A stretch of DNA of 44,710 nucleotides. It comes from a virus. The position numbers were made by a program, and so were the translations under genes. Within the stretch, counting starts at the first letter, position 1. Every line of letters begins with the position of its first letter. Location of the stretch: the IMG/VR virus record IMGVR_UViG_3300020171_000055, positions 1 to 44,710 of that record; one strand, written 5' to 3'. The notes beneath the pieces are model-generated. The model had not been told where the DNA came from, ran no database searches, and saw only the letters and a list, made by a program, of their open reading frames with translations. Shown here one piece after another: positions 1 through 44,710 of this stretch.

Positions 1-147
1 CCGATCCTGGTAAACACAAGTCTGAAGCCGTGCGCTTACCTGTCCTCTTCCTGGTTGAATGCAGTGCGCATACCCGCAGCCGCCACGGCTGTTGTACCCA
101 TTGGCATCTCACAACACAACCTTGCCTCGAAACGCATCACAGCGGAT
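1..147. repeat. Terminal redundancy, left copy
   Basis: Bases 1-147 match 44564-44710. Bases 22-147 are identical. The first 21 bases hold four differences (positions 6, 13, 14 and 21). Two are silent, and positions 13-14 change one codon (Asn here, Ala in the right copy). This is what a circular assembly, or a terminally redundant headful-packaged genome, looks like. The unit length would be 44563 bases. Confidence 0.9.
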
Positions 148-1989
148 GGACCAGAGTCAGCAGCTAACCGCAACTACCGCGATTGGACTGCATTGCGCTC
201 GGCTGATGCGGCTGGGCTACCGGCTCTCGCGGAGTTCGGCGAACATGCATTCTACGGCGCCTACAGTAGTCCGGGCAGCAACAGCGACCCCTGGCGCGAG
301 CTGTACTGGGCATCGCTGGCTGGCTTTGGAGTGGGCGCTGACTGGATCGCCTACAACAACACGCACAAGCCCTATGAGACCGTGCTCCAGCAGTGGGTGA
401 ACGACTGCATGAGCAACCCGGCTTGCGGCGCGCTGTTCATGCATGATGTGGAGGACCCCACCTTTCGCGATGCGCCGGGCACCTTCACAGGCAGCGACAT
501 CAAAGGCAACCTCGGGCGAAACCTCGCCATAGCCGCGCCTACTACCTACCCCCAAGCCTGCCGCCAGAACATGGTAACTCAGAGTGTGATTGACGTAGCT
601 GCCTGGTTGGCCTACCCAGCCACAGTGGACTACCCGCGCCCATGCGACACCAACGTGCTGCCCACGCCAAAGGCCACGATCCAGACCACACCGGTGGCGA
701 GCGCGGCTGGCGACATCAACATGCTCCAGCGCCTGGCAAACAGGCAGGCCCGCATCATCCCAGCCGGCGAGACCATGCCGGTCACGATTGACAGCGCTTG
801 GACCGCGGCGGGCAGAGTGTACGACACCACCACATTCCGGTTGATCTATCTGGACAATGGCAGCGATAACATCAGCGTGGTATGGGAGAGCGATGGCCTG
901 GGCTCCTACGGTAGCGAAGTCATCACGCGTGGCGGCACTGGATTGTGGATCGTCTATGAATGGACTGACGCCTTGTTCGCGGGCGGCGACATAGAGCTGG
1001 CCGTGAACTCATTAGATGACCCAGCCTACATCCACATGGTGAGCGTGGAGCTGGATGAAGTAAACACACCCACCCCGACCGCGACCAGCACCGTCACGCT
1101 GACGCCTACCAACACACCAACACCTACATCTACCATCACCAGGACGCCGACACCCACGCCAACCAACACATCAGTACCAGCCGAACCAACCAACACGCCG
1201 GTGCCGACACCGACTGGATCGCACACGCCCACCAACACACCAACCCCCACCGACACACCAACACCAACCAACACGCCGACGCCCACCTACACACCCACCA
1301 ACACCCCCACCTACACGCCGACGCCCACGGTTACGTTGACACCGACCAGCAGCAGTACACCTACCCGCACGAGCACCAGCACCATCACACCCACCCCGAC
1401 GCGCACGTCCACGCCCACCATCACGCCTACGGTGACCACAAACCCTACTGTGGGCGTGTTCACAAACAAGAGCTTCGAGCTGCACTCTGGCGTGCCAGAC
1501 GATGGGACCAGCGATACCTGGATTGGGTGGCTGCGAGGCGACACATCCTCGGCTGTAGTCGAAAGCTCGCGTCATGCACATACTGGCATGTACAGTATCA
1601 AGATGAGTAAGAACCCAGATTACTCGCTTGCTCATGGCGTCCTACAGTACGTCACCGTGTTGCCTGGCAGCACCTACAGGCTGTCCTTCTGGAGTCAGTC
1701 GCCTTCACCTGCGAGCAGCGGAAGCTACCAAGTTTACGACTACGGGACGCCTCGCACTATAGTGGCGCTCACTCACTTGGCCCCGAGCAGCACGGCCTGG
1801 TTCTACACCGGGGTGGACCTCACTGTACCTGCTGGCACCACCCAGGTAGCCGTCATCCTGTTCGGCTACCTGGGCAGCACTCCAAACGTCTCCGTGTACT
1901 ACGATGACGTGAGTCTGCGCTACGTGACCCAGCCCACCCGTACACCCCTGCCTGCCACCCCAGTCGCCACCCGCACACCCATCGCGTAA
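1..1989 (+). CDS. Surface lipoprotein with glycoside-hydrolase-like body, TP linker and C-terminal CBM-like domain (3' part)
   Basis: Open from base 1 in frame 1; it continues without a break the reading frame that starts at 43748 and crosses the circle junction (full protein 934 residues; 662 here). In full-length numbering, the hydrolase-like body contains A-E350-F-G-E353, a plausible catalytic glutamate segment. A low-complexity linker of Thr-Pro, Asn-Thr-Pro and Ser-Thr runs are at about residues 628-752 (bases 1066-1440). After it comes a jelly-roll-like domain starting at FTNKSFE, resembling the CBM4/9 type, then a short TP tail to the TAA stop. Such linkers are common in secreted Chloroflexota proteins. 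The TTG at 55 is not the start: the frame is open upstream and there is no ribosome site there. The function (surface glycan binding or cleavage) is inferred from architecture only. Confidence 0.72.
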
Positions 1990-2539: not shown

Positions 2540-3325
2540 ATGGAGCAGTCAGAGAGCATTGGAGCATTGGCGAAGGCGTTGTCGCAGGCGCAGGGCGAGA
2601 TGAAGCCTGCCTTGATGAACGCGAGCAATCCGTTCTTGAAGAATAGGTACGCTGACCTGGGCTCGGTGATCGAGGCAGTGCGACCCATCCTGGCGAAGTA
2701 CAGCCTTGCTTTCACGCAGCACGCTGAGAGCACGTTGGACCGCTGGGTTTCAGTTACCACACAGATCATGCACGAGTCGGGAGAGTGGCAGCGAAGCAGT
2801 CTCGGCATGCTGCTCGTAGATGTGAAGGGCCAAAGCCCGGCGCAAGCTATGGGCAGTCAGGTTACGTACATGAAGCGGTACGGTTTGACCGGGGTGTTCG
2901 GCATCTACGCTGACGAGGACACCGACGGCAACGTCGGCACCGCACCAGAGCAGTCAGCCCGGGCGGCGGTGGAGGAGCGCAGAGCAAGGCAGGAGTCAGC
3001 GGGTAGGGCCGCCCCTATCACCTATGAGGGCCGGTCAACAGAACCGACACCGAGCGAGCAGGACTTCCAGCAGAACGTTGCCTCGGTAGAGCGCAAGCAC
3101 TGGATCGAGAACCCCACCATGCGTGCAGCCTTCTGGGCCTGGACCAAGAACCAACTCGGTCTGACCAGCGAGCAGGTGCATGAGGCACTGGGAGTGGAGC
3201 GTATCGCCAACTTGACCGGCTCGAAGTCGGAGGCGATGGACCTAATCATCCACTACCGGGACGCGCTGCTGGACGCGAAGCAGACAGCACAGGAGGCAAG
3301 TCGTGTCAACGCCAATCAATCATGA
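2540..3325 (+). CDS. ERF-family single-strand annealing protein
   Basis: 261 residues. The N-terminal two thirds match the ERF superfamily pattern: an early helix, NPFLKNRYADLGSVIEAVRPIL (about residues 29-50), a beta-rich centre with MHESGEWQRSSLGML, then QAMGSQVTYMKRYGLTGVFGIYADEDTDGN (about 101-130). ERF proteins form rings on single-stranded DNA and promote annealing during phage recombination, genome circularisation and double-strand-break repair. The C-terminal third is charged and probably mediates partner contacts. The gene overlaps the next by 23 bases. Its position ahead of the initiator and helicase genes is usual for a phage recombination/replication module. Confidence 0.88.
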   Translation: MEQSESIGALAKALSQAQGEMKPALMNASNPFLKNRYADLGSVIEAVRPILAKYSLAFTQHAESTLDRWVSVTTQIMHESGEWQRSSLGMLLVDVKGQSPAQAMGSQVTYMKRYGLTGVFGIYADEDTDGNVGTAPEQSARAAVEERRARQESAGRAAPITYEGRSTEPTPSEQDFQQNVASVERKHWIENPTMRAAFWAWTKNQLGLTSEQVHEALGVERIANLTGSKSEAMDLIIHYRDALLDAKQTAQEASRVNANQS

Positions 3326-3539
3326 CGAGAGCTCACCCTGTGATGTATGCGAGGAGGTGTGCTGGCCCAAGTGCCATGTGTACCTGGAGATCAGGCAGCC
3401 GGTGGCAGTGCAGCATGTGGACGACGACCCGGAGTGTGAGCATGGTCGGCTCGTGAGTGACGGGTGCAGCGAGTGCGACAAGTGGGCATGGGCTGACATG
3501 CAGTACGACGAGGAGCGGATTGCTAGGAGGGCACGATGA
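3303..3539 (+). CDS. Cys-rich small protein, probable zinc binder
   Basis: 78 residues from a GTG start inside the end of the ERF gene, with AGGAGG 5-6 bases upstream deciding the start. Two cysteine clusters stand out: CDVCEEVCWPKCH near residues 13-25, and ECEHGRLVSDGCSECDKW near 44-61. Paired CxxC motifs of this kind usually hold zinc. The C-terminus is basic (ERIARRAR). The stop overlaps the next ATG. No family recognised; one of several short Cys-rich proteins in this early region. Confidence 0.72.
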   Translation: MSTPINHDESSPCDVCEEVCWPKCHVYLEIRQPVAVQHVDDDPECEHGRLVSDGCSECDKWAWADMQYDEERIARRAR

Positions 3540-3745
3540 ACACTACCAGGGTAACACTCAACCGGTACGAGATCACTTGTGTCGAGCATTTCCTGGAGAA
3601 GACAGGCAACCAGGTCAGCTTCGCAGAGGCAGCAAGACGGCTGGTGCGGCTGGGCTTTTCTGACTGGGTGACGGAGGTGGGCACCAAGGCGGACCGGTAC
3701 AACCCGGAGATCATCCCGTTCGTCGATCCACCACTGGAAGAATGA
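3536..3745 (+). CDS. Hypothetical early protein, RHH-like, 69 aa
   Basis: ATG overlaps the previous TGA, with CTAGGAGGGCACG as ribosome site. The start NTTRVTLNRYEITCVEHFLEKTG followed by VSFAEAARRLVRLGFSDWV has the layout of a short strand followed by two helices seen in ribbon-helix-helix regulators, and it resembles the gene product at 3904. The RHH call is tentative. It is the last gene before a 12-bp perfect hairpin at 3819-3852. Confidence 0.6.
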   Translation: MNTTRVTLNRYEITCVEHFLEKTGNQVSFAEAARRLVRLGFSDWVTEVGTKADRYNPEIIPFVDPPLEE

Positions 3746-3818
3746 CAGTAGGCTGGCCCGCACGCGGCGACGGTGATTCCGTCCTGGCGGCGGCTCGGCT
3801 GGCTTTCCTCCTTTGCGG

Positions 3819-3852
3819 CTGGTTGGTAGGGGCGCAAGTTCCTACCAACCAG
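3819..3852 (+). terminator. 12-bp perfect hairpin, probable terminator of the first early operon
   Basis: CTGGTTGGTAGG at 3819-3830 is the exact reverse complement of 3841-3852, with a ten-base loop. No clear U tract follows, so it may terminate poorly or serve as a protein site. It lies between the first early operon (2075-3745) and a fresh consensus promoter at 3869. The stretch 3746-3818 holds no convincing gene. Confidence 0.55.
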
Positions 3853-3868
3853 TTGGAAGATTAGACAT

Positions 3869-7975: not shown

Positions 7976-8088
7976 GCAACTGGGCAATGGCTGGCATTCT
8001 GGTTGGTGGCATCGTGTTGACCTCGGTACTGTGGGAGCTGGCGATCCAGTGGCATTATCGGTGGCGGAGAAGGCGGCGAGGACGATGA
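7972..8088 (+). CDS. Single-pass small membrane protein, 38 aa
   Basis: MSNWAMAGILVGGIVLTSVL forms one membrane helix (about residues 5-25), followed by a highly basic tail with RWRRRRRGR. The ATG overlaps the previous stop and its own stop overlaps the next ATG, so all three genes are translationally coupled. A short hydrophobic helix plus arginine-rich cytoplasmic tail next to a hydrolase suits a holin or lysis accessory protein, but no family was recognised. Confidence 0.55.
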   Translation: MSNWAMAGILVGGIVLTSVLWELAIQWHYRWRRRRRGR

Positions 8089-8876
8089 CGAAAACCTGGT
8101 TGCCTTATGTTCCGGCGCATGTACCGGTGTGGAGATGGCCAAGGAAAGGGGTCGGAGTCCCGACGCAGTACTCTGCTCCGACCTCGCAGCTTACCGCCGA
8201 CATCGACGACTACTGGTGGTATGACTGGACAGGGCAGAGCCGCAACTCCAAGCATGTACCTATGGCCTGGGGGCTGGGCAGTCTACCCGCTACGATCCCG
8301 GCAAGCAATAACGACGGGCGACCGCTGCTCGTGTTGAACGAGCCGGACGTGGTGGGGCAGGCGAACTGCTCGCCGGATCAGGCGGCTGATTTCTTCCACA
8401 TTTGGAGCCAAGTGTGGAAGGGTGAACTGTGGCCGCTAGGTACATTGGCGCACAATCTGGACTATGTGATCAGGACAATGAACTCCTATGAGTTTCGCTA
8501 TGGCTCCTGGCCGGGGACTGGCTGGGCAATCCACGCCTACAGCAACCGGGCGGTGTGGTGCCTGGACTTGTGCCAGGAGTATAAGCTGCGCATCGCAGTC
8601 GATGATGTGCGCAACTTTGCAGCGTACATGGAAGGGCGCGGACTGTTGGGTCGTGGCATCGTGATCTCGGAGTGTGGCGTGTTGAGTGCTCAGTATTGGC
8701 ATACAACCGCGGAGGTAGCGCCGGCGGTGCAGTACCTGTACCGGGAACTGAGCGCGCTGCCCTACGTAAGATCAGTGAATTGGTTCAGCAGCTATTACGC
8801 TCCGTGCAGCAGCAGCGACCTAGTACGCCTTGATGGCAGTCTGACCGAGTGTGGGCAGGAGTGGAGAAGGCGATGA
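8085..8876 (+). CDS. GH128 (Asl1-like) glycoside hydrolase, putative lysis enzyme
   Basis: 263 residues from ATG 8085, which overlaps the previous TGA. LLVLNEPDVVGQANCSPDQA (about residues 81-100) is close to the G-F-N-E-P-D signature of the Asl1-like/GH128 catalytic core, with E86 as candidate acid/base. GIVISECGVL carries E196 as candidate nucleophile. The family is a TIM-barrel cleaving beta-1,3-glucan-type polysaccharides. No signal peptide is evident, so export would need a holin or another route; flanking tiny membrane proteins fit that. It could degrade host wall or sheath glycan, or be an endolysin for an unusual envelope. Confidence 0.75.
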   Translation: MTKTWLPYVPAHVPVWRWPRKGVGVPTQYSAPTSQLTADIDDYWWYDWTGQSRNSKHVPMAWGLGSLPATIPASNNDGRPLLVLNEPDVVGQANCSPDQAADFFHIWSQVWKGELWPLGTLAHNLDYVIRTMNSYEFRYGSWPGTGWAIHAYSNRAVWCLDLCQEYKLRIAVDDVRNFAAYMEGRGLLGRGIVISECGVLSAQYWHTTAEVAPAVQYLYRELSALPYVRSVNWFSSYYAPCSSSDLVRLDGSLTECGQEWRRR

Positions 8877-11594: not shown

Positions 11595-11807
11595 CTAGAA
11601 GTCGCAATGCCAGCGAGTGAATATCACGGTGTGGGCAGCACGGTCAAGGTAGTCTTGGTCTGCCAGCTCGGGATAGTCGGCCCGCAGATTGCCGCCGTAC
11701 ATCTCGGCCATGTTCTCGGTGCTGAAGTACATATGCACCTCATCCTCCGAGTCGAAGCGCAGACCGAAGTCAAACCCCGTTGCTTCTGAGATATCCTGTC
11801 GTGTCAT
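11595..11807 (-). CDS. Acidic hypothetical protein, 70 aa
   Basis: ATG at 11807 (MTRQDISEATGFDFGLRFDS) overlaps the previous stop, with AGGAGTTGACCCG upstream. About 15 Asp/Glu against about five Arg gives strong negative charge, and the fold looks mixed alpha/beta with aromatic residues. Last gene of the minus operon. Unknown family; small acidic early phage proteins are sometimes DNA mimics that block host nucleases or regulators, which is only a possibility here. Confidence 0.66.
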   Translation of the reverse strand: MTRQDISEATGFDFGLRFDSEDEVHMYFSTENMAEMYGGNLRADYPELADQDYLDRAAHTVIFTRWHCDF

Positions 11808-11998
11808 CGGGTCAACTCCTCTTCCGTTGTCTCTTCCCAGTTCTTGGATCCGATAAATGCCCATATCATGTCGCCAAAGTCAGGGTCGAATACGCTGATC
11901 CAGCCCTGGTTTGCCGGGTCTTCGTGCCCGCCCGAGATCCTGACGCCATACTCTCCCCTCGTCATGACTGGTTTACCGGTGTATTTGAAAGTCCTCAC
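11804..11998 (-). CDS. Hypothetical protein, 64 aa
   Basis: GTG start at 11998 (MRTFKYTGKPVMTRGEYGVR), chosen because GAGGAGTTGACACA precedes it and the upstream gene stops at 12003; the longer open frame runs antisense to coding. SGGHEDPANQGWISVFDPDF suggests a compact beta-rich domain, and the end is acidic (EETTEEELTR). The TGA overlaps the next ATG. No family recognised. Confidence 0.64.
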   Translation of the reverse strand: MRTFKYTGKPVMTRGEYGVRISGGHEDPANQGWISVFDPDFGDMIWAFIGSKNWEETTEEELTR

Positions 11999-12002
11999 TG
12001 TG

Positions 12003-12191
12003 TCAACTCCTCTCAAACGCGGTGACATACCCGATACTTTCGAACTCGTCGCTTGGCCGCGCGTCGCGGTTAGGTTTCTCGGTGGCGCACAGCTCGCCGA
12101 CGTCGTCGATGTATAGATAGGTGTCATCAGTCGGGTCGGAAAGTTGGAGGATTTCCAGCATTTGCTCAATGGTTAGCTTGTGGTGGTTCAT
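12003..12191 (-). CDS. Acidic hypothetical protein, 62 aa
   Basis: ATG at 12191 overlaps the previous TGA (ATGA), with AAAGGAGTTGACCCG upstream, the same leader wording as its neighbours. HHKLTIEQMLEILQLSDPTD is a helix followed by a very acidic stretch (DDTYLYIDDVGE). Strong net negative charge. Unknown. Confidence 0.64.
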   Translation of the reverse strand: MNHHKLTIEQMLEILQLSDPTDDTYLYIDDVGELCATEKPNRDARPSDEFESIGYVTAFERS

Positions 12192-16192: not shown

Positions 16193-18751
16193 GTGATGGC
16201 AAAACGAGGGGCGTGGCGCAAGCGGGCTGAATCGGGTGAACGAACGCCTTCACCGATGGACAACCTGCCCAAGCCGCAGCGCTGGCCTTCCTTCGCCGAG
16301 AAGATCGGTATGTGGGAGTCGATCAATGTCTCCCTCTTTCCCAGCCAGCTCTCGGCCTCTACCCAGATCACTGGCGACCGCGGTACAGCTCGTGTTGTGC
16401 TCACGATGGGCGGCGAGCGAGCCGGTAAGTCCCAGTGGACCGCCTATGAAGTGTTCGCCCTCGCCCCCTGGTGTGACCTCATCTACATTACCGGCGCTCA
16501 GTTCGAGAATACCGAGCCGGAGTTCAAGTACCTCGAAGCACTCTTCCGCACGGCTGGCTTACTGTCTTCCGTTAATAAACCTCTCACCGGCGCTTGGAAC
16601 ATGACGACCATGTGGGGCTGCGAGATTCGCACGCTGTCCTACGTAAGGGCGGGCTCCGACGCGCTGGTCACGACGGGCCGGGCTCCTGACGTGGTGGTCA
16701 TGTGCGAAGCCGGTATGCTCTCTGATGACGTGTTCCTCACAGCCCTGACCCGCGTTGGTGAGCGGCGCGGAGCCGTCATCATGTCCGGTACGCTCAAGCG
16801 GTCGCGGCCTTGGTACGTCGGCCTGTATGACCAGATGAAGGGCACCAACATCTTTAATGGAACGAGCTGGTCCTTCCCGAGCTGGGAGAACCTGACTGTT
16901 TACCCCGGCGGCAGGAACGACCCACAGATTCTACAACTGGAGGCGGCGCTTGGAGATATTCGATTTCGAGAGCGAATTGCTGGCGAGCCTGTGCCCAGCC
17001 CACTGCTTGTCTTTGGACGCGAGTTCGACTATAAGCTGCATGTTGCGGAGGTCGGGTTCGATCCGCTTCTGCCCATCCTGCTGGCCAGCGATCCAGGTTA
17101 TGCTGGAGCCTACAGCCTACTTGTCGTGCAGGCTGCCTCTGACCAAGATGTACGCGTCATCGACGAGTTCTACCGCCAGTACAGCACCTGGGACGAGGCG
17201 GTAACGTGGCTACGCGAGCGACCTTACATAAAGGTTGACAGTCATGGTAAGATTATGAATGTGATCTACGGTAACGCGGTCATGGACGTGGCTGGCTATC
17301 AGCACCATGCCGAGAAGTCGCAAATTGACCAGTGGATGACGCATACTGGTGTTCATTTCCTTGGCCGGCGCGTGTCGATTCTTGATGGCATCACCAGGAT
17401 GCGGGACTTCCTGCGCAGTCCGTTTGGCTGGGAGAAGACCCGCATCAGGATCAACCCGAAGTGCGAAGGGCTGCTATGGGAGTTGGCCCAGGGTGAGCAG
17501 TACCCGAAAGACCAGGAAGGCAACCCCATCAAGGAGAATCCGAAGGACGAAAATAACCACTGCGTGATAGGTAGGACGATGATCGACCTACCAGGTGGAC
17601 GCAGGCGCATCGATGAACTTGTGGGCCAAGAGCCCCATGTCTATTGCTGTATCGATGGCAAGGTGGCAGTCCGCAAAGCGCATCACATTCATCGCACGCG
17701 CAAGAATGCTGAGATCGTCTGCATTCGCATGGACAAAGGAGAACTACACCTAACAGCCGATCACTTGGTCATGCTGGCCAATGGCACGTATCAAGAAGCT
17801 GGCAAACTCAGACCAGGACAGTCTCTGATGGCGATGAACCGATACGGTGCTACTGCGAGTGGCTATACCAATGTCTGCATGACAGGCGATACTCGTAACA
17901 GCGTTGTGGAGCATCGCCTAGTCTACGAGCAGGTACACGGTCCTATCCCGGAGGATTGGCACATAGACCACATTGATGGCAATGCTTGGAATCATCACCC
18001 TGACAACCTGCAAGCATTGAGTATCGAGGACCATGCTGCCAAGCATCACTCTGGCAAGATCATCAGTTTCAAGCACAGAGAGGTAATTCGCGAAGCAAGT
18101 AAACAGCGTTGGCGCGAGAACTATGAGCAGCTCAAAGAGATGTCTCAGGAGAACGTCAAGCATGCTCATCAGGCGAATGTCGGCAGACCAGTAACCGCGG
18201 AAACACGGGCCAAGTTAAGTGCGACAAGCACGGGGCGCAAGTACCCCAATCGCAAAAAGAAACCTCCAGCGACAGATGCAATGCGGGAGAAGTGCAGGCA
18301 GGCCAAGTTTAAGTACTGGGAGGATCACCCAGAGGAACGAGCGCGACGGTCGCAACAGCGCAAGGACTATCTTGCCGAACATCCAATGACTGAAGAGACT
18401 CGCCGGAAGATCGGTGAAGGGCAAGCAAGTTACCAGGAAAAGAAGCGAGCTGCGAATCATCGAGTGATCGTGGTACTTCCTGCGGGTAGGGCCGACGTGT
18501 ATGACATGGAAGTCGAGGAAGCACACAATTTCGTGGCCGAAGGAGTGGTCATCCACAATTCGCGCAAGGCTCTAAGCTACCTGCTCGTGCAGAAGTTCGG
18601 TAGGTCAGATGGCGAGCGCTTCCTGCCGCCCGAACACGGTCATGACCCATTTGCGGGTAAGGTGGTTGGTGATGTTACAATAGTGAAGACTGCGACTGGC
18701 GTGAGGATCAAGCGGGTGCGCACGACGGTTGATTCCATGACCTTCCGTTAA
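16193..18751 (+). CDS. terL: Large terminase with an in-frame HNH intein
   Basis: 852 residues as encoded: exteins 1-456 and 790-852 (519 after splicing). ATPase part: Walker A GGERAGKS near residues 72-79 and Walker B-like DVVVMCEAG near 167-174. Nuclease part: LLASDPG with D300 and NAVMDVAG with D365. The intein splits the third nuclease motif: DENNH then, after splicing, S-R-K-A-L-S-Y. In most large terminases that motif reads H-x-x-D-A-L-R-Y with a metal-binding Asp; Lys stands there in this protein. TerL pumps DNA into the prohead and cuts concatemers. Start ATG after GAAAGGCTGGTGTG. Confidence 0.88.
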   Translation: MMAKRGAWRKRAESGERTPSPMDNLPKPQRWPSFAEKIGMWESINVSLFPSQLSASTQITGDRGTARVVLTMGGERAGKSQWTAYEVFALAPWCDLIYITGAQFENTEPEFKYLEALFRTAGLLSSVNKPLTGAWNMTTMWGCEIRTLSYVRAGSDALVTTGRAPDVVVMCEAGMLSDDVFLTALTRVGERRGAVIMSGTLKRSRPWYVGLYDQMKGTNIFNGTSWSFPSWENLTVYPGGRNDPQILQLEAALGDIRFRERIAGEPVPSPLLVFGREFDYKLHVAEVGFDPLLPILLASDPGYAGAYSLLVVQAASDQDVRVIDEFYRQYSTWDEAVTWLRERPYIKVDSHGKIMNVIYGNAVMDVAGYQHHAEKSQIDQWMTHTGVHFLGRRVSILDGITRMRDFLRSPFGWEKTRIRINPKCEGLLWELAQGEQYPKDQEGNPIKENPKDENNHCVIGRTMIDLPGGRRRIDELVGQEPHVYCCIDGKVAVRKAHHIHRTRKNAEIVCIRMDKGELHLTADHLVMLANGTYQEAGKLRPGQSLMAMNRYGATASGYTNVCMTGDTRNSVVEHRLVYEQVHGPIPEDWHIDHIDGNAWNHHPDNLQALSIEDHAAKHHSGKIISFKHREVIREASKQRWRENYEQLKEMSQENVKHAHQANVGRPVTAETRAKLSATSTGRKYPNRKKKPPATDAMREKCRQAKFKYWEDHPEERARRSQQRKDYLAEHPMTEETRRKIGEGQASYQEKKRAANHRVIVVLPAGRADVYDMEVEEAHNFVAEGVVIHNSRKALSYLLVQKFGRSDGERFLPPEHGHDPFAGKVVGDVTIVKTATGVRIKRVRTTVDSMTFR
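17561..18559 (+). mobile_element. Intein with HNH homing endonuclease in TerL
   Basis: 333 residues (457-789). It starts with Cys457 (CVIGRTMID). It has the block-B TxxH in ELHLTADHLVML, and ends with VYDMEVEEAHNFVAEGVVIH-N789; the next residue is Ser790. Cys1, TxxH, penultimate His, terminal Asn and +1 Ser are all the splicing residues required. An HNH domain lies in the middle (VHGPIPEDWHIDHIDGNAWN, HPDNLQAL), followed by NUMOD3-like repeats (GRPVTAETRAKLS; HPMTEETRRKIGEG) that bind DNA in homing enzymes. The insertion sits in a conserved active-site motif, as inteins usually do. Confidence 0.9.
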
Positions 18752-40757: not shown

Positions 40758-41266
40758 TGTCACTGCCTAACTGGGAGCGGCCAATTGGCAAGAAGCTCAA
40801 GAAGCTCAAGCCGCCCAAGCCGGTCCCGAAGCAGCGAGCGCCTGCCAAGCGCCCCAACTACAAGCGTATCCTGGAGCAGTTCACGGCAGCTCTGGCGAAT
40901 CTCAAAGCCGCTGATCGGCGGCAGATACCCGAAGGCACGCTTCCGGAGATGATGGTAGCCTGGGCGCTGGTCAAGAACAAGCTGCAGTTTCAGTCGCAGC
41001 AGCGTGAAGGAGGTGGACAGCTACGCCTCGGTGGCGGAGTGGTTGACTTCCTGGTACAGATGGGCAGCAGTGTTGTAGTGGTACGCGTAAATGGTGATTA
41101 TTGGCATAGCCTGCCAGAACGCAAGCGCAAGGACGAGCTGCAAGCGCAACTGCTGAGGCTGCGCAAGTACCGGTTGGTCGACCTCTGGGAGCATGACATC
41201 TATGTCACTTGGACAGAAGGTCGCCTGATCCAATGGGTTGCAGATGAGATAAGGAGCGCACAGTGA
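40757..41266 (+). CDS. Vsr/DUF559-like (PD-(D/E)XK fold) protein, 169 aa
   Basis: ATG overlaps the tail-protein stop. A basic N-terminus (KKLKKLKPPKPVPKQRAPAK) precedes a domain with EGTLPEMMVAWALV, then GGGVVDFLVQMGSSVVVVRV, NGDYWHSLPERKRKDE, and LRKYRLVDLWEHDIY. This is the order of Vsr/DUF559-type nucleases: an Asp after a strand, the strand ending V-x-G-x-Y-W-H, a helix, then L-W-E-x-D-I. The usual E-V-D-G is R-V-N-G here, so catalysis is uncertain. It might act in packaging or DNA repair, or be structural. Confidence 0.6.
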   Translation: MSLPNWERPIGKKLKKLKPPKPVPKQRAPAKRPNYKRILEQFTAALANLKAADRRQIPEGTLPEMMVAWALVKNKLQFQSQQREGGGQLRLGGGVVDFLVQMGSSVVVVRVNGDYWHSLPERKRKDELQAQLLRLRKYRLVDLWEHDIYVTWTEGRLIQWVADEIRSAQ

Positions 41267-42402
41267 GCACCCGCAAGTCAATGCACTGGATACCCATCCA
41301 CACCGACGGGTACGACAAGGAAGTCATCAAGGTCTGGAAGCCGCCCGTCATCAAGATCATCGACCCGAGCTGGCAGCACATTGTCGACGCCAGGGCAGCA
41401 TCGCCCAACAGTTGGTTCGTGCTACGTGACCACCCACTGTCCGAGCAGCACGAGGATATGTTCCTAGACCCAGTGGGCACGGGCAAGCGGCACGCTGAAC
41501 GTTGGGATCAGAGGCTCTGGGAGCTGAACGCCGATCCTGAGCGCACCTGGATCAGCGGCATCAACGAGCCCCACGTCTGGGAGAAGGACGGTATCCCCAA
41601 GACAGTAGACTACACAGTGTCGCTCATGGAAGAGGCGGACCGACGGGGGTTACAGGTCTCGGCCCTGGAGATTGGGCACGGCTGGCCGGCAAACCTGGGC
41701 GAGGACCTGCCGGTCAACTGGGAACCCTATGATGCCATCCGCGAAGTGATGATGCGCACCAGGCGACACGTCCTGGAGATTCACAGCTACTGGGACACGC
41801 GTGGCCCACTGTTCAACTGGAAGTGGTGGGCAGGCAGGTTCACCCAGTGTCCGTGGCAGGTGCCCATCTTCATCGGTGAGTGCGGAATTGACCAGTTCGT
41901 CAATGGTCCGGGCAATTCTGAAAGTCGCGGCTGGGCTGCGCACATGGACAGCAACGCCTACATGGACCAGTGGCATCACCTCGAGTTAGAGGTGAGCAAG
42001 GACCTACGCGTGTGGGCCTGGATGATCTTCTCCTATGACGGTGCCAAACCCTGGGGCACCCTTGACATCAGGCAGTGTAGGGATAAGGTGCTCCAGTACG
42101 TGGAGCGGGCCGGCGGCACTCAGATAGTTCACCCGTGGGCCTTTCTCACCACACAGCTCACCTTTGGCCAGGCGCTGAAGGCAGCGGCTGAGGCACATGA
42201 CGTGATCTCGGTCAACCCTGATGCTGCGCTGATGAAGGAGGGTAGACGCAAGAACTTGCTGTACACGAGCAACGAGTTTCCATTCTCGTTCAACGGCATC
42301 AACTACGTGTGCCAGCGATTCATGGAGCCTTTCAGCAACGTAGTGACGATTCTGTTTTGTATCACCGGCCAGTGGGAGAAAGTCATGAGCCATTCATACT
42401 GA
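41263..42402 (+). CDS. Glycoside-hydrolase-like TIM-barrel protein, 379 aa
   Basis: GTG start supported by TAAGGAG seven bases upstream; overlaps the previous TGA. RTWISGINEPHVW holds candidate acid/base E102, and QVPIFIGECGIDQF candidate nucleophile E206, the N-E-P plus later E arrangement of clan A hydrolases. HVLEIHSYWDTRGPLFNWKW and VWAWMIFSYDGAKPWG add barrel-like strands. It resembles in plan the GH128-like protein at 8085 and the lipoprotein body, so this phage encodes three such enzymes. The place after the tail genes suggests a virion-associated or lysis depolymerase. Confidence 0.68.
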   Translation: MSTRKSMHWIPIHTDGYDKEVIKVWKPPVIKIIDPSWQHIVDARAASPNSWFVLRDHPLSEQHEDMFLDPVGTGKRHAERWDQRLWELNADPERTWISGINEPHVWEKDGIPKTVDYTVSLMEEADRRGLQVSALEIGHGWPANLGEDLPVNWEPYDAIREVMMRTRRHVLEIHSYWDTRGPLFNWKWWAGRFTQCPWQVPIFIGECGIDQFVNGPGNSESRGWAAHMDSNAYMDQWHHLELEVSKDLRVWAWMIFSYDGAKPWGTLDIRQCRDKVLQYVERAGGTQIVHPWAFLTTQLTFGQALKAAAEAHDVISVNPDAALMKEGRRKNLLYTSNEFPFSFNGINYVCQRFMEPFSNVVTILFCITGQWEKVMSHSY

Positions 42403-42403
42403 G

Positions 42404-42907
42404 CTAGGTGACATGCTTCCATGTCTTGCGAGTACATATCGTCCATACGGTGCATCTATCTATTCCGTAGATGCGAGCGAGGTCAACGGGTCTTGCTCCT
42501 GCTGCGCGGCTGATTCGGATCTGTCGCACATCGATGTCGGTCAACTTGCTGAGGCCATTCTGTTCCCCCGCTGAAATATGGGGAAAGGAAGAATTGAATA
42601 GTCCTCTACTTTTGACAAACGCGTCACGCATGTTGTCGGCATGGGTGCCAAGAAAGAGATGGTCGGGACGAACACAGGGTGGATTATCGCAATGGTGGCA
42701 GACACAGAGCCCATCTGGGATAGGACCATATGCTATCTCCCAGGAGACACGATGTGTGTACGGATAGCTGCGCGTTATTCCGCAATAGATTTGCCCATAA
42801 CCCCCGCTGACACATCCTGCCGTCCATAACCAGCAGTCGTCGGACTTGTCAACGTGAGACCAGAATCGTTGAAGGAACTTGGGATCGGTGGTATACTGGG
42901 GGAGCAT
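42404..42907 (-). CDS. Free-standing HNH homing endonuclease
   Basis: 167 residues, ATG at 42907 after AGAAAGGACGTTCCG. N-terminal DDCWLWTAGCVSGGYGQIYC, then the HNH core HRVSWEIAYGPIPDGLCVCH, HCDNPPCVRPDHLFLGTHADNM (Cys pairs bind zinc), and a C-terminal HTH (KLTDIDVRQIRISRAAGARP; DLARIYGIDRCTVWTICTRK) that reads DNA. Genes like this move between phages. It is the only minus-strand gene in the 16.2-44.7 kb region, and its 3' end lies two bases from the hydrolase stop, which suggests insertion. Confidence 0.86.
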   Translation of the reverse strand: MLPQYTTDPKFLQRFWSHVDKSDDCWLWTAGCVSGGYGQIYCGITRSYPYTHRVSWEIAYGPIPDGLCVCHHCDNPPCVRPDHLFLGTHADNMRDAFVKSRGLFNSSFPHISAGEQNGLSKLTDIDVRQIRISRAAGARPVDLARIYGIDRCTVWTICTRKTWKHVT

Positions 42908-43020: not shown

Positions 43021-43734
43021 ATGGCTAACAGAGCCATCAGCAAGACTACAGTACTTTGGATTTGTCCAACACCGCCTGACTTGCCGCCGCTGCAGTGGGC
43101 GGCGGAACTGGGTGGCATAGAACAATTGCCGGGTGTCGAGATGCACAGCCTGGTTGGCCCGGCTGCTAACACCATGGCAATTGGGACAGCGCTGGCGCTG
43201 GGCGCTGAGGATGTAGTCATCTGGTCCGGGCATGGTCGTGAGAACGGTCTGATGACAACCGAGGGAGTGATCCTGTCAGGGCAGTGGATCGCCATGCAGA
43301 TCAAGGCCGGCGCGCCGAGGATATTCCTGGTCGGCGCTTGTTTCTCTGGCAGCGTTGACGAGTTTCTCCAATCGATCACCGAGCAAGTATCTGAGGCTGG
43401 CGTCAACGCCATCGGCTTCCAAGCCGCCGCGAACGATCGCGCTGCCGCAGTGTATGCCATCGAGTTCGTGCGTGCGTTGACAGCCGATGCTGCCCCCAAT
43501 GCCGCTCATAGACTGGCTCGCCAAGAATGTTCCAAGATCAACAAGGCAACGGCGGCGAGCGTCATTTTCCAAGCTGGTATTGTGAATGGGTTAAGCACGG
43601 TGCTGCAAGCTATCAAGACTCTGGGGATCGAGGTACATCGCAACGGGGATCGCATTGTGGCCTTGGAAGAGCAGCAAGCAGAGATACTTCTTCAGATACG
43701 CAACCTGCCCATGGCGATGCGGGGGATGCGATAG
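43021..43734 (+). CDS. Caspase-like (clan CD) protease-fold protein
   Basis: 237 residues; ATG after CCGAAAGGACACATC. AEDVVIWSGHGRENG supplies the catalytic-type His71 in the S-G-H-G motif, and RIFLVGACFSGSVDEFLQSI the Cys107 in the strand-then-G-A-C-F-S-G motif; the 36-residue spacing suits caspase/CHAT folds. The N-terminus (TVLWICPTPPDLPPLQWAAE) is the first strand and helix, and the C-terminus ends with a short coiled coil (RIVALEEQQAEILLQIRNLP). No signal peptide or death-fold adaptor. Bacterial caspase-like proteases act in immune suicide pathways and in signalling; a phage copy could trigger, divert or block such a pathway. Function is inferred; the fold call is fairly secure. Confidence 0.75.
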   Translation: MANRAISKTTVLWICPTPPDLPPLQWAAELGGIEQLPGVEMHSLVGPAANTMAIGTALALGAEDVVIWSGHGRENGLMTTEGVILSGQWIAMQIKAGAPRIFLVGACFSGSVDEFLQSITEQVSEAGVNAIGFQAAANDRAAAVYAIEFVRALTADAAPNAAHRLARQECSKINKATAASVIFQAGIVNGLSTVLQAIKTLGIEVHRNGDRIVALEEQQAEILLQIRNLPMAMRGMR

Positions 43735-43747
43735 AAGCGGAGATACC

Positions 43748-44710
43748 ATGAGACGACGAATCGCGCTAGCCCTGCTGGTGTTCGGCCTGCTGCTCGTAGT
43801 GATCGCTGGCTGCACGAAGCGGGCCCTACCCGAGCCACCGCCCATGCCTGCGGGACTGTCGCGCTACGTCTACTCTGCCCCGGCAGAGACCCCGTTCCCA
43901 GATATGTTCTACTACAACTACAGCACAGGAGCACAGGCCGAACCTGACCAGCGGCGCAGCTACGACGTCCTGTATCCGGGCAACTATCCGATGGGCCAGA
44001 TCTGTATGACAGGCAACCTCGATGACGTGTGGCCCATTGCAGGTACAGGCGCTTTTGTCTGGGCATCCTATGATGACTGTTTCTCGGACACTACTGGCTA
44101 CACGCTGACACTGGGCACTGGTCAGGAAGTCGGGCAACCAATCATCCTGGACATCCCACCCGACTTTCTTGTGCCAGGTGGAACTGGTGACCCAGGCAAT
44201 CCGTATAACACGATCGAGTTCCCTGTTTGGATGAGCAACACCACCTACGTTGAGAAGTTCGTGGCTCCCGGCTCAGGCAAGACCTACTGGGGTATCAAAT
44301 ACGGTGCCATGACACCGCTGATGGCGACCTTCATCGAGGCGGTCGGTCGTCATTTCACAGACCAGTCACGCATCGCAGCCGTGCGTATCAGGACGGGTTA
44401 CGGCGGTGAGTCAGCGCCAGTTCAACCTATACATGCTCTCGACATTAATGCTTACGAGAATGCTTTCTTCACGTATTATCAAGACAACGTCTCAAGCTGT
44501 AACAACTACCTGAACTTCATCGACACGATGGCGAATACAGCCGCTGTTTGGTTCCCAGACAAACCGATTCTGGTAGCCACAAGCCTGAAGCCGTGCGCTT
44601 ACCTGTCCTCTTCCTGGTTGAATGCAGTGCGCATACCCGCAGCCGCCACGGCTGTTGTACCCATTGGCATCTCACAACACAACCTTGCCTCGAAACGCAT
44701 CACAGCGGAT
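43748..44710 (+). CDS. Surface lipoprotein with glycoside-hydrolase-like body (5' part; continues at base 1)
   Basis: ATG follows a purine-rich AGCGGAGATACC leader, 13 bases after the caspase-like gene. Residues 1-22 form a classic lipoprotein signal: MRRR, a hydrophobic core, then V-I-A-G-C22, so Cys22 should be lipidated after signal peptidase II cleavage. The following region contains R-T-G-Y-G-G-E221-S, the type of loop that carries the acid/base glutamate in TIM-barrel glycoside hydrolases; E350 in the other half is a candidate nucleophile. Frame arithmetic (816 bases from 43748 to 44563, then base 1) gives a seamless 934-residue protein. A lipoprotein made from a phage genome should sit on the host cell surface rather than in the virion. 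It could alter receptors or surface glycans, but that is inference. Confidence 0.72.
   Translation, partial: MRRRIALALLVFGLLLVVIAGCTKRALPEPPPMPAGLSRYVYSAPAETPFPDMFYYNYSTGAQAEPDQRRSYDVLYPGNYPMGQICMTGNLDDVWPIAGTGAFVWASYDDCFSDTTGYTLTLGTGQEVGQPIILDIPPDFLVPGGTGDPGNPYNTIEFPVWMSNTTYVEKFVAPGSGKTYWGIKYGAMTPLMATFIEAVGRHFTDQSRIAAVRIRTGYGGESAPVQPIHALDINAYENAFFTYYQDNVSSCNNYLNFIDTMANTAAVWFPDKPILVATSLKPCAYLSSSWLNAVRIPAAATAVVPIGISQHNLASKRITAD
44564..44710. repeat. Terminal redundancy, right copy
   Basis: Right copy of the 147-base redundancy with 1-147. It lies inside the lipoprotein gene and is in the same frame as the left copy, so joining the ends restores one uninterrupted gene. The clustered differences near the contig start suggest a population variant or an assembly-edge effect. 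Confidence 0.9.

Follow-up and report, generated by a model that had tools for sequence, protein, structure and literature searches.

Prokaryotic proteases of the caspase fold are known as effectors of host immunity and cell death, and the locus described here raises the question of what a phage does with a gene that appears to encode one. The gene lies in a 44,710-nucleotide stretch of viral DNA (IMG/VR record IMGVR_UViG_3300020171_000055), to which we refer as the window. An earlier note had read its product as a caspase/CHAT-type protease of clan CD, and we asked what the gene, its relatives and its neighbourhood say about fold, activity and role.

The open reading frame at 43021-43734 begins with ATG downstream of a Shine-Dalgarno-like GAAAGGA and encodes a 237-residue protein, P0001, with the motifs SGH71G and GAC107FSG in that order and His71 and Cys107 36 residues apart, exactly as the earlier note had described. 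A loosened form of this motif pair appeared in 7 of 200,000 shuffles of P0001. Among about a thousand frames of at least 60 codons in the window and five related loci, it was found only in this reading frame and two orthologues; the window contains the corresponding DNA pattern a single time, and 100 shuffles never produced it. Searching IMG/VR with a DNA pattern that fixes both motifs and the distance between them, we matched a single contig, whose orthologue is 47% identical to the window protein, and a profile of these two sequences recovered a third family member (39% identity). Both orthologues sit in uncultured phage contigs (L001/L002 and L003).

Sequence conservation in this small family centers on the putative active site. 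The SGH71G motif, the GAC triplet and the serine at position 109 are invariant in all three proteins, as part of the more extended patterns IWSGHG.E.GL and GAC.S, and a block following the cysteine, A.GF..AA.D.AA..Y..E.VRAL, is likewise retained in all three. Within the protease domain, NG86 estimates of dN between orthologue pairs are about 0.34-0.56 and synonymous sites are at or near saturation (dS about 2.3-2.6 for two of the pairs; for the third it could not be computed). The protease domain is thus under purifying selection, and we therefore regard reading frame 43021-43734 as a real gene. The C-terminal tail is far more diverged among the orthologues than the protease domain. Its long helix carries hydrophobic residues at 82% of the a/d positions in the best heptad register as opposed to 30% elsewhere, and in the model described below the tail likely forms a coiled coil. 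Because P0001 has no signal peptide and no membrane helix was found by hydropathy, the protease is presumably cytoplasmic. The features of the locus are collected in the table.

Table. Features of the protease gene and its neighbourhood in the window
Feature	Position	Strand	Evidence or remark
Glycosidase-like protein, neighbour common to all six records	41263..42402	+	profile search
HNH endonuclease with HTH, between the glycosidase-like and protease genes	42404..42907	-	
CHAT/caspase-fold cysteine protease (P0001), 237 aa	43021..43734	+	ORF, motifs, orthologues, predicted fold
SGH71G motif, putative catalytic His right after strand 3	43225..43236	+	motif, model
GAC107FSG motif, putative catalytic Cys ending strand 4	43333..43350	+	motif, model
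Conserved segment AIGF..AA.D.AA..YA.EFVRAL, strand 5 and next helix	43408..43479	+	alignment
C-terminal long helix, residues 190-227, heptad-like, fast-diverging	43588..43701	+	model, heptad count, divergence
Large lipoprotein-like gene, 5' part, with lipobox-like VIAGC	43748..44710	+	continues at 1-1989
Same lipoprotein-like gene, 3' part, with Thr/Pro-rich linkers and carbohydrate-binding domain (CBM_4_9)	1..1989	+	

Database searches placed P0001 in no established family. Taken alone, it had no match in Pfam, PHROGs or PADLOC and only insignificant matches in NCBIfam and among PDB sequences, and tblastn found it in none of 50,697 phage records. Neither the protease gene nor the neighbouring glycosidase-like gene had a relative in two scans of genomes from bacteria and archaea. 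The earlier note had proposed a comparison with the Peptidase_C14 and CHAT profiles, and P0001 rose above neither Pfam cut-off: neither it nor its orthologues matched Pfam CHAT (PF12770), and the curated cut-off of Peptidase_C14 (caspases and metacaspases, PF00656) was not reached. To Peptidase_C25 (gingipains, PF01364) P0001 had no match, and the two orthologues scored 17.9 and 14.6 bits (E=0.002 and 0.02) over the catalytic stretch, below the cut-off of 23 bits. Since it fails these cut-offs, we file the window protein under none of the three families. An hhalign comparison of the three orthologues with a CHAT protein encoded by a related phage (L010, described below) gave E=0.0027 for one comparison over 137 columns at an hhalign probability of only about 10%. 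This result is suggestive at most: no frame outside the family, of 167 tried, scored better, and in this alignment His falls on His and Cys on Cys.

A single-sequence AlphaFold2 model of P0001 was poor (pLDDT 50), and in a search of the PDB it matched periplasmic-binding folds best, with no caspase among the best 50. We considered this model too poor and its fold search misleading, and set it aside for one built on an alignment of five sequences, the three orthologues together with the L010 protein and its counterpart from a further phage, L008; the order of structural elements is similar in the two models. Given the presence of the L010 and L008 proteins in the alignment, CHAT sequence information entered the second model. 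It reached pLDDT 78 and pTM 0.72 and shows a caspase-type alpha/beta sheet with strands at residues 9-15, 39-45, 65-70, 101-107, 129-135 and 182-187 and helices between them. The earlier note had regarded a fold lacking this sheet as fatal to its reading; in the model the sheet is present, His71 directly follows strand 3 and Cys107 ends strand 4.

Foldseek comparison of the alignment-based model with the PDB returned SAVED-CHAT (8tl0) as the best match (E=3e-7, probability 1.00, TM 0.52-0.57 by query). Five SAVED-CHAT filament chains head the list, caspase-4, caspase-11, caspase-7 and CED-3 follow, and MALT1 and gingipain R are found lower down. All 13 PDB matches at E<=0.001 are CHAT proteins or caspases, as obtained with a model whose alignment included two CHAT-like proteins. 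In the viral library BFVD a Pithovirus protein named caspase is the third match, behind two that are unnamed or uncharacterised and superpose with poor rmsd. Taken together, the motifs, the orthologues, the CHAT protein that L010 encodes at this locus, the predicted fold and its PDB matches lead us to assign the CHAT/caspase fold of clan CD, as the earlier note had proposed, and we hold the clan CD protease fold to be nearly certain. By predicted fold the window protein appears closest to CHAT.

The position of the gene bears on its role. Window positions 44564-44710 repeat positions 1-147 with four mismatches, all within the first 21 bases, and no exact end repeat occurs at the very tips; the 147 bp overlap of the ends indicates that the record circularises at about 44,563 bp (~44.56 kb). 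What the earlier note took for a surface lipoprotein beside the protease gene is a single long lipoprotein-like gene that extends across the contig ends. The note's further statement that the protease is remote from virion genes holds only in part: the protease gene directly follows a tail-like/glycosidase-like block, with only the opposite-strand HNH endonuclease gene intervening. The protease gene stands between tail/envelope-glycan genes and early genes. NEPH and GECG motifs alone suggest that the glycosidase-like protein belongs to clan GH-A; it has no significant Pfam match. No relatives emerged when the proteins encoded nearby and the major head protein were used as single queries. A second glycosidase-type gene (Glyco_hydro_cc, E=9.2e-13) lies at 8031-8873, in the first third of the window, and the 852-residue product of a terminase-region gene at 16193-18748 contains an intein (Intein_splicing, E=8e-14) and an HNH endonuclease.

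In the orthologue contigs the gene order is lipoprotein-like, glycosidase-like, M23 peptidase, caspase-like, metallophosphoesterase-like and then early genes. The M23 gene is absent from the window, unlike these contigs, and a homologue of the window's HNH endonuclease sits elsewhere in L003/L005. The metallophosphoesterase-like label is a reading of motifs in a protein with no Pfam match. This gene (L003 7420-8283, L002 8751-9611) begins at the protease stop codon or no more than 4 bases from it, which suggests coupled translation; its near-fusion to the protease gene in L002/L003 fits roles other than the one preferred below as well.

A profile of the glycosidase-like protein uncovered three more phages, L008, L009 and L010. 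At the same place L010 encodes a CHAT protein above the Pfam cut-off (E=6.4e-11) that also matches PDB 8tl0 by sequence (E=3e-4). The conserved segment of strand 5 and its following helix in P0001 aligns with the same segment of this protein, which carries a C-terminal membrane helix. Between this CHAT gene and the glycosidase-like gene lie two tiny ORFs and then a gene for a stand-alone response-regulator receiver domain (11669-12037, E=2.8e-10), which comes immediately before the CHAT gene and at its end overlaps the CHAT frame. L008 carries, two genes downstream of its glycosidase-like gene, a gene (3057-3857) whose product appears CHAT-like by alignment and has no significant Pfam match; FLNAC is kept, the HG motif is lost, the C-terminus has membrane helices, and small membrane-protein ORFs flank the gene. 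The L009 contig ends before the place of the protease gene. A CHAT/caspase-type gene is therefore found downstream of the glycosidase-like gene in each of the five records complete there, in versions that appear soluble, membrane-anchored or inactivated. Short Lactococcus plasmid proteins annotated as hypothetical (L012 2723-3298) also resemble the L010 CHAT protein (E=1e-6), a likeness that gave no clue to function.

As a whole, these observations are best explained if the window protein is a stand-alone clan CD CHAT/caspase-fold protease with a late, host-directed role, a reading to which we assign a probability of roughly 0.45. P0001 is predicted with good confidence to be catalytically competent. 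His71 would activate Cys107, which would cleave the peptide bond, and the C-terminal coiled coil would bring protease subunits together; we propose such assembly by analogy with SAVED-CHAT and other known CHAT effectors, which function in the assembled state. The protease would be made late, together with the exit/envelope genes, and would cut one or a few host proteins, finishing off or dismantling the host cell around lysis, much as the late caspase of the ascovirus SfAV-1a does. It is from gene position alone, with no promoter evidence found, that we infer both late expression and host-directed action, and we put forward a late, host-directed intracellular protease as the most likely role, if tentatively. 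With their membrane helices, the L008 and L010 proteins would exert this kind of activity at the inner membrane face. That a tailed-phage group with a CHAT/caspase gene fixed in its exit/envelope block runs an ascovirus-like programme resembling host cell death, with the receiver-domain gene directly ahead of one CHAT version hinting at a regulated protease switch, is a broader and improbable proposal.

Several other explanations were weighed against this one. A chance resemblance, in which an unrelated Rossmann-like protein acquired SGHG and ACFSG by accident, would account for the failure of P0001 alone to match any family and for the affinity of its single-sequence model to periplasmic-binding folds; it is largely refuted by the alignment-based model and Foldseek, whose top matches are CHAT proteins and caspases, and with exactly these motifs conserved in the orthologues and a CHAT protein at the same locus we judge it extremely improbable. 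The protein could instead counter host defence by cutting an immune protein (a sensor, a cyclase, a gasdermin or a CHAT partner), thereby stopping abortive infection. Bacterial immune systems employ CHAT/caspase proteases, and a phage enzyme with this fold could have host substrates in common with them; the genes around the protease also vary between relatives. The protease gene, however, lies outside any early or anti-defence island, keeps one fixed place next to the glycosidase-like gene instead of being gained and lost, and its product has no PADLOC match, and we consider this role rather unlikely.

Another candidate function is processing of the phage's own proteins, in that the protease might mature a late protein (the Thr/Pro-rich lipoprotein, a lysin or a tail protein) or might be the capsid protease. 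It adjoins such late genes, and the scanned head genes included no other recognisable maturation protease. Known capsid proteases, however, differ in fold and are encoded within the head module, whereas the major head and scaffold-like genes here are about 11 kb from the protease gene, a position that led us to downgrade the capsid-protease role; a protease confined to the cytoplasm would have access to the lipoprotein only until its export, and the relatives with membrane helices are ill-suited to capsid maturation. We consider processing of phage proteins just as unlikely as counter-defence, both being close rivals of the host-directed role. The earlier note had also raised a decoy, that is, a dominant-negative CHAT/caspase homologue that binds the partners of host caspases without cutting. 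The loss of the His motif in the L008 counterpart and the caspase of the ascovirus HvAV-3e, which lacks catalytic residues (PMC12655742), are in line with such a role, but a decoy by lost catalysis is disfavoured for the window protein, since neither catalytic motif has been lost in any of the three orthologues and the surrounding residues are under purifying selection, and we think it very unlikely.

A late, host-directed protease would have a precedent among other viruses. The SfAV-1a caspase is expressed late and both drives and is needed for the break-up of the host cell (PMC12655742). The CHAT/caspase proteases known from bacterial immunity include SAVED-CHAT (PMC11229360) and Craspase (PMC9729208); systems of the caspase type occur chiefly in multicellular bacteria (PMC8195603). 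Enzymes of this cell-death type are not something for which bacterial viruses are known, and in the open-access literature searched, we found no report of a phage caspase, a phage CHAT protein or a syntenic phage family of them. A conserved single-domain phage version would show that bacterial viruses wield a caspase-type enzyme, as insect and giant viruses do. The protease is compact, identifying its substrate could point to a pathway of host death or defence, and what the phage cuts late in infection becomes testable.

Compared with SAVED-CHAT of type III CRISPR/CBASS (PDB 8tl0), P0001 has the same order of His and Cys but lacks the SAVED sensor, consisting in its 237 residues of one protease domain and a helical tail, and unlike SAVED-CHAT it is phage-borne and encoded outside a CRISPR/CBASS locus. 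Metazoan caspases (caspase-4, -11, -7 and CED-3) and MALT1 share its modelled fold and dyad order and have no sequence match to it; of the traits of metazoan caspases, neither Asp specificity nor p20/p10 processing is indicated for P0001. Gingipain R of Peptidase_C25 is likewise a clan CD enzyme and is among the structural matches, but gingipains are secreted whereas P0001 has no signal peptide. Virus-encoded proteins with a caspase fold or caspase annotation are known from the ascovirus SfAV-1a, Pithovirus LCPAC304 and Yasminevirus. These are viruses of eukaryotes with no sequence similarity shown to the window protein, whereas here the gene belongs to a bacteriophage and has its own conserved gene neighbourhood. 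Even the apparent loss of His in the L008 version has its parallel, resembling the catalytically dead caspases of other ascoviruses (PMC12655742).
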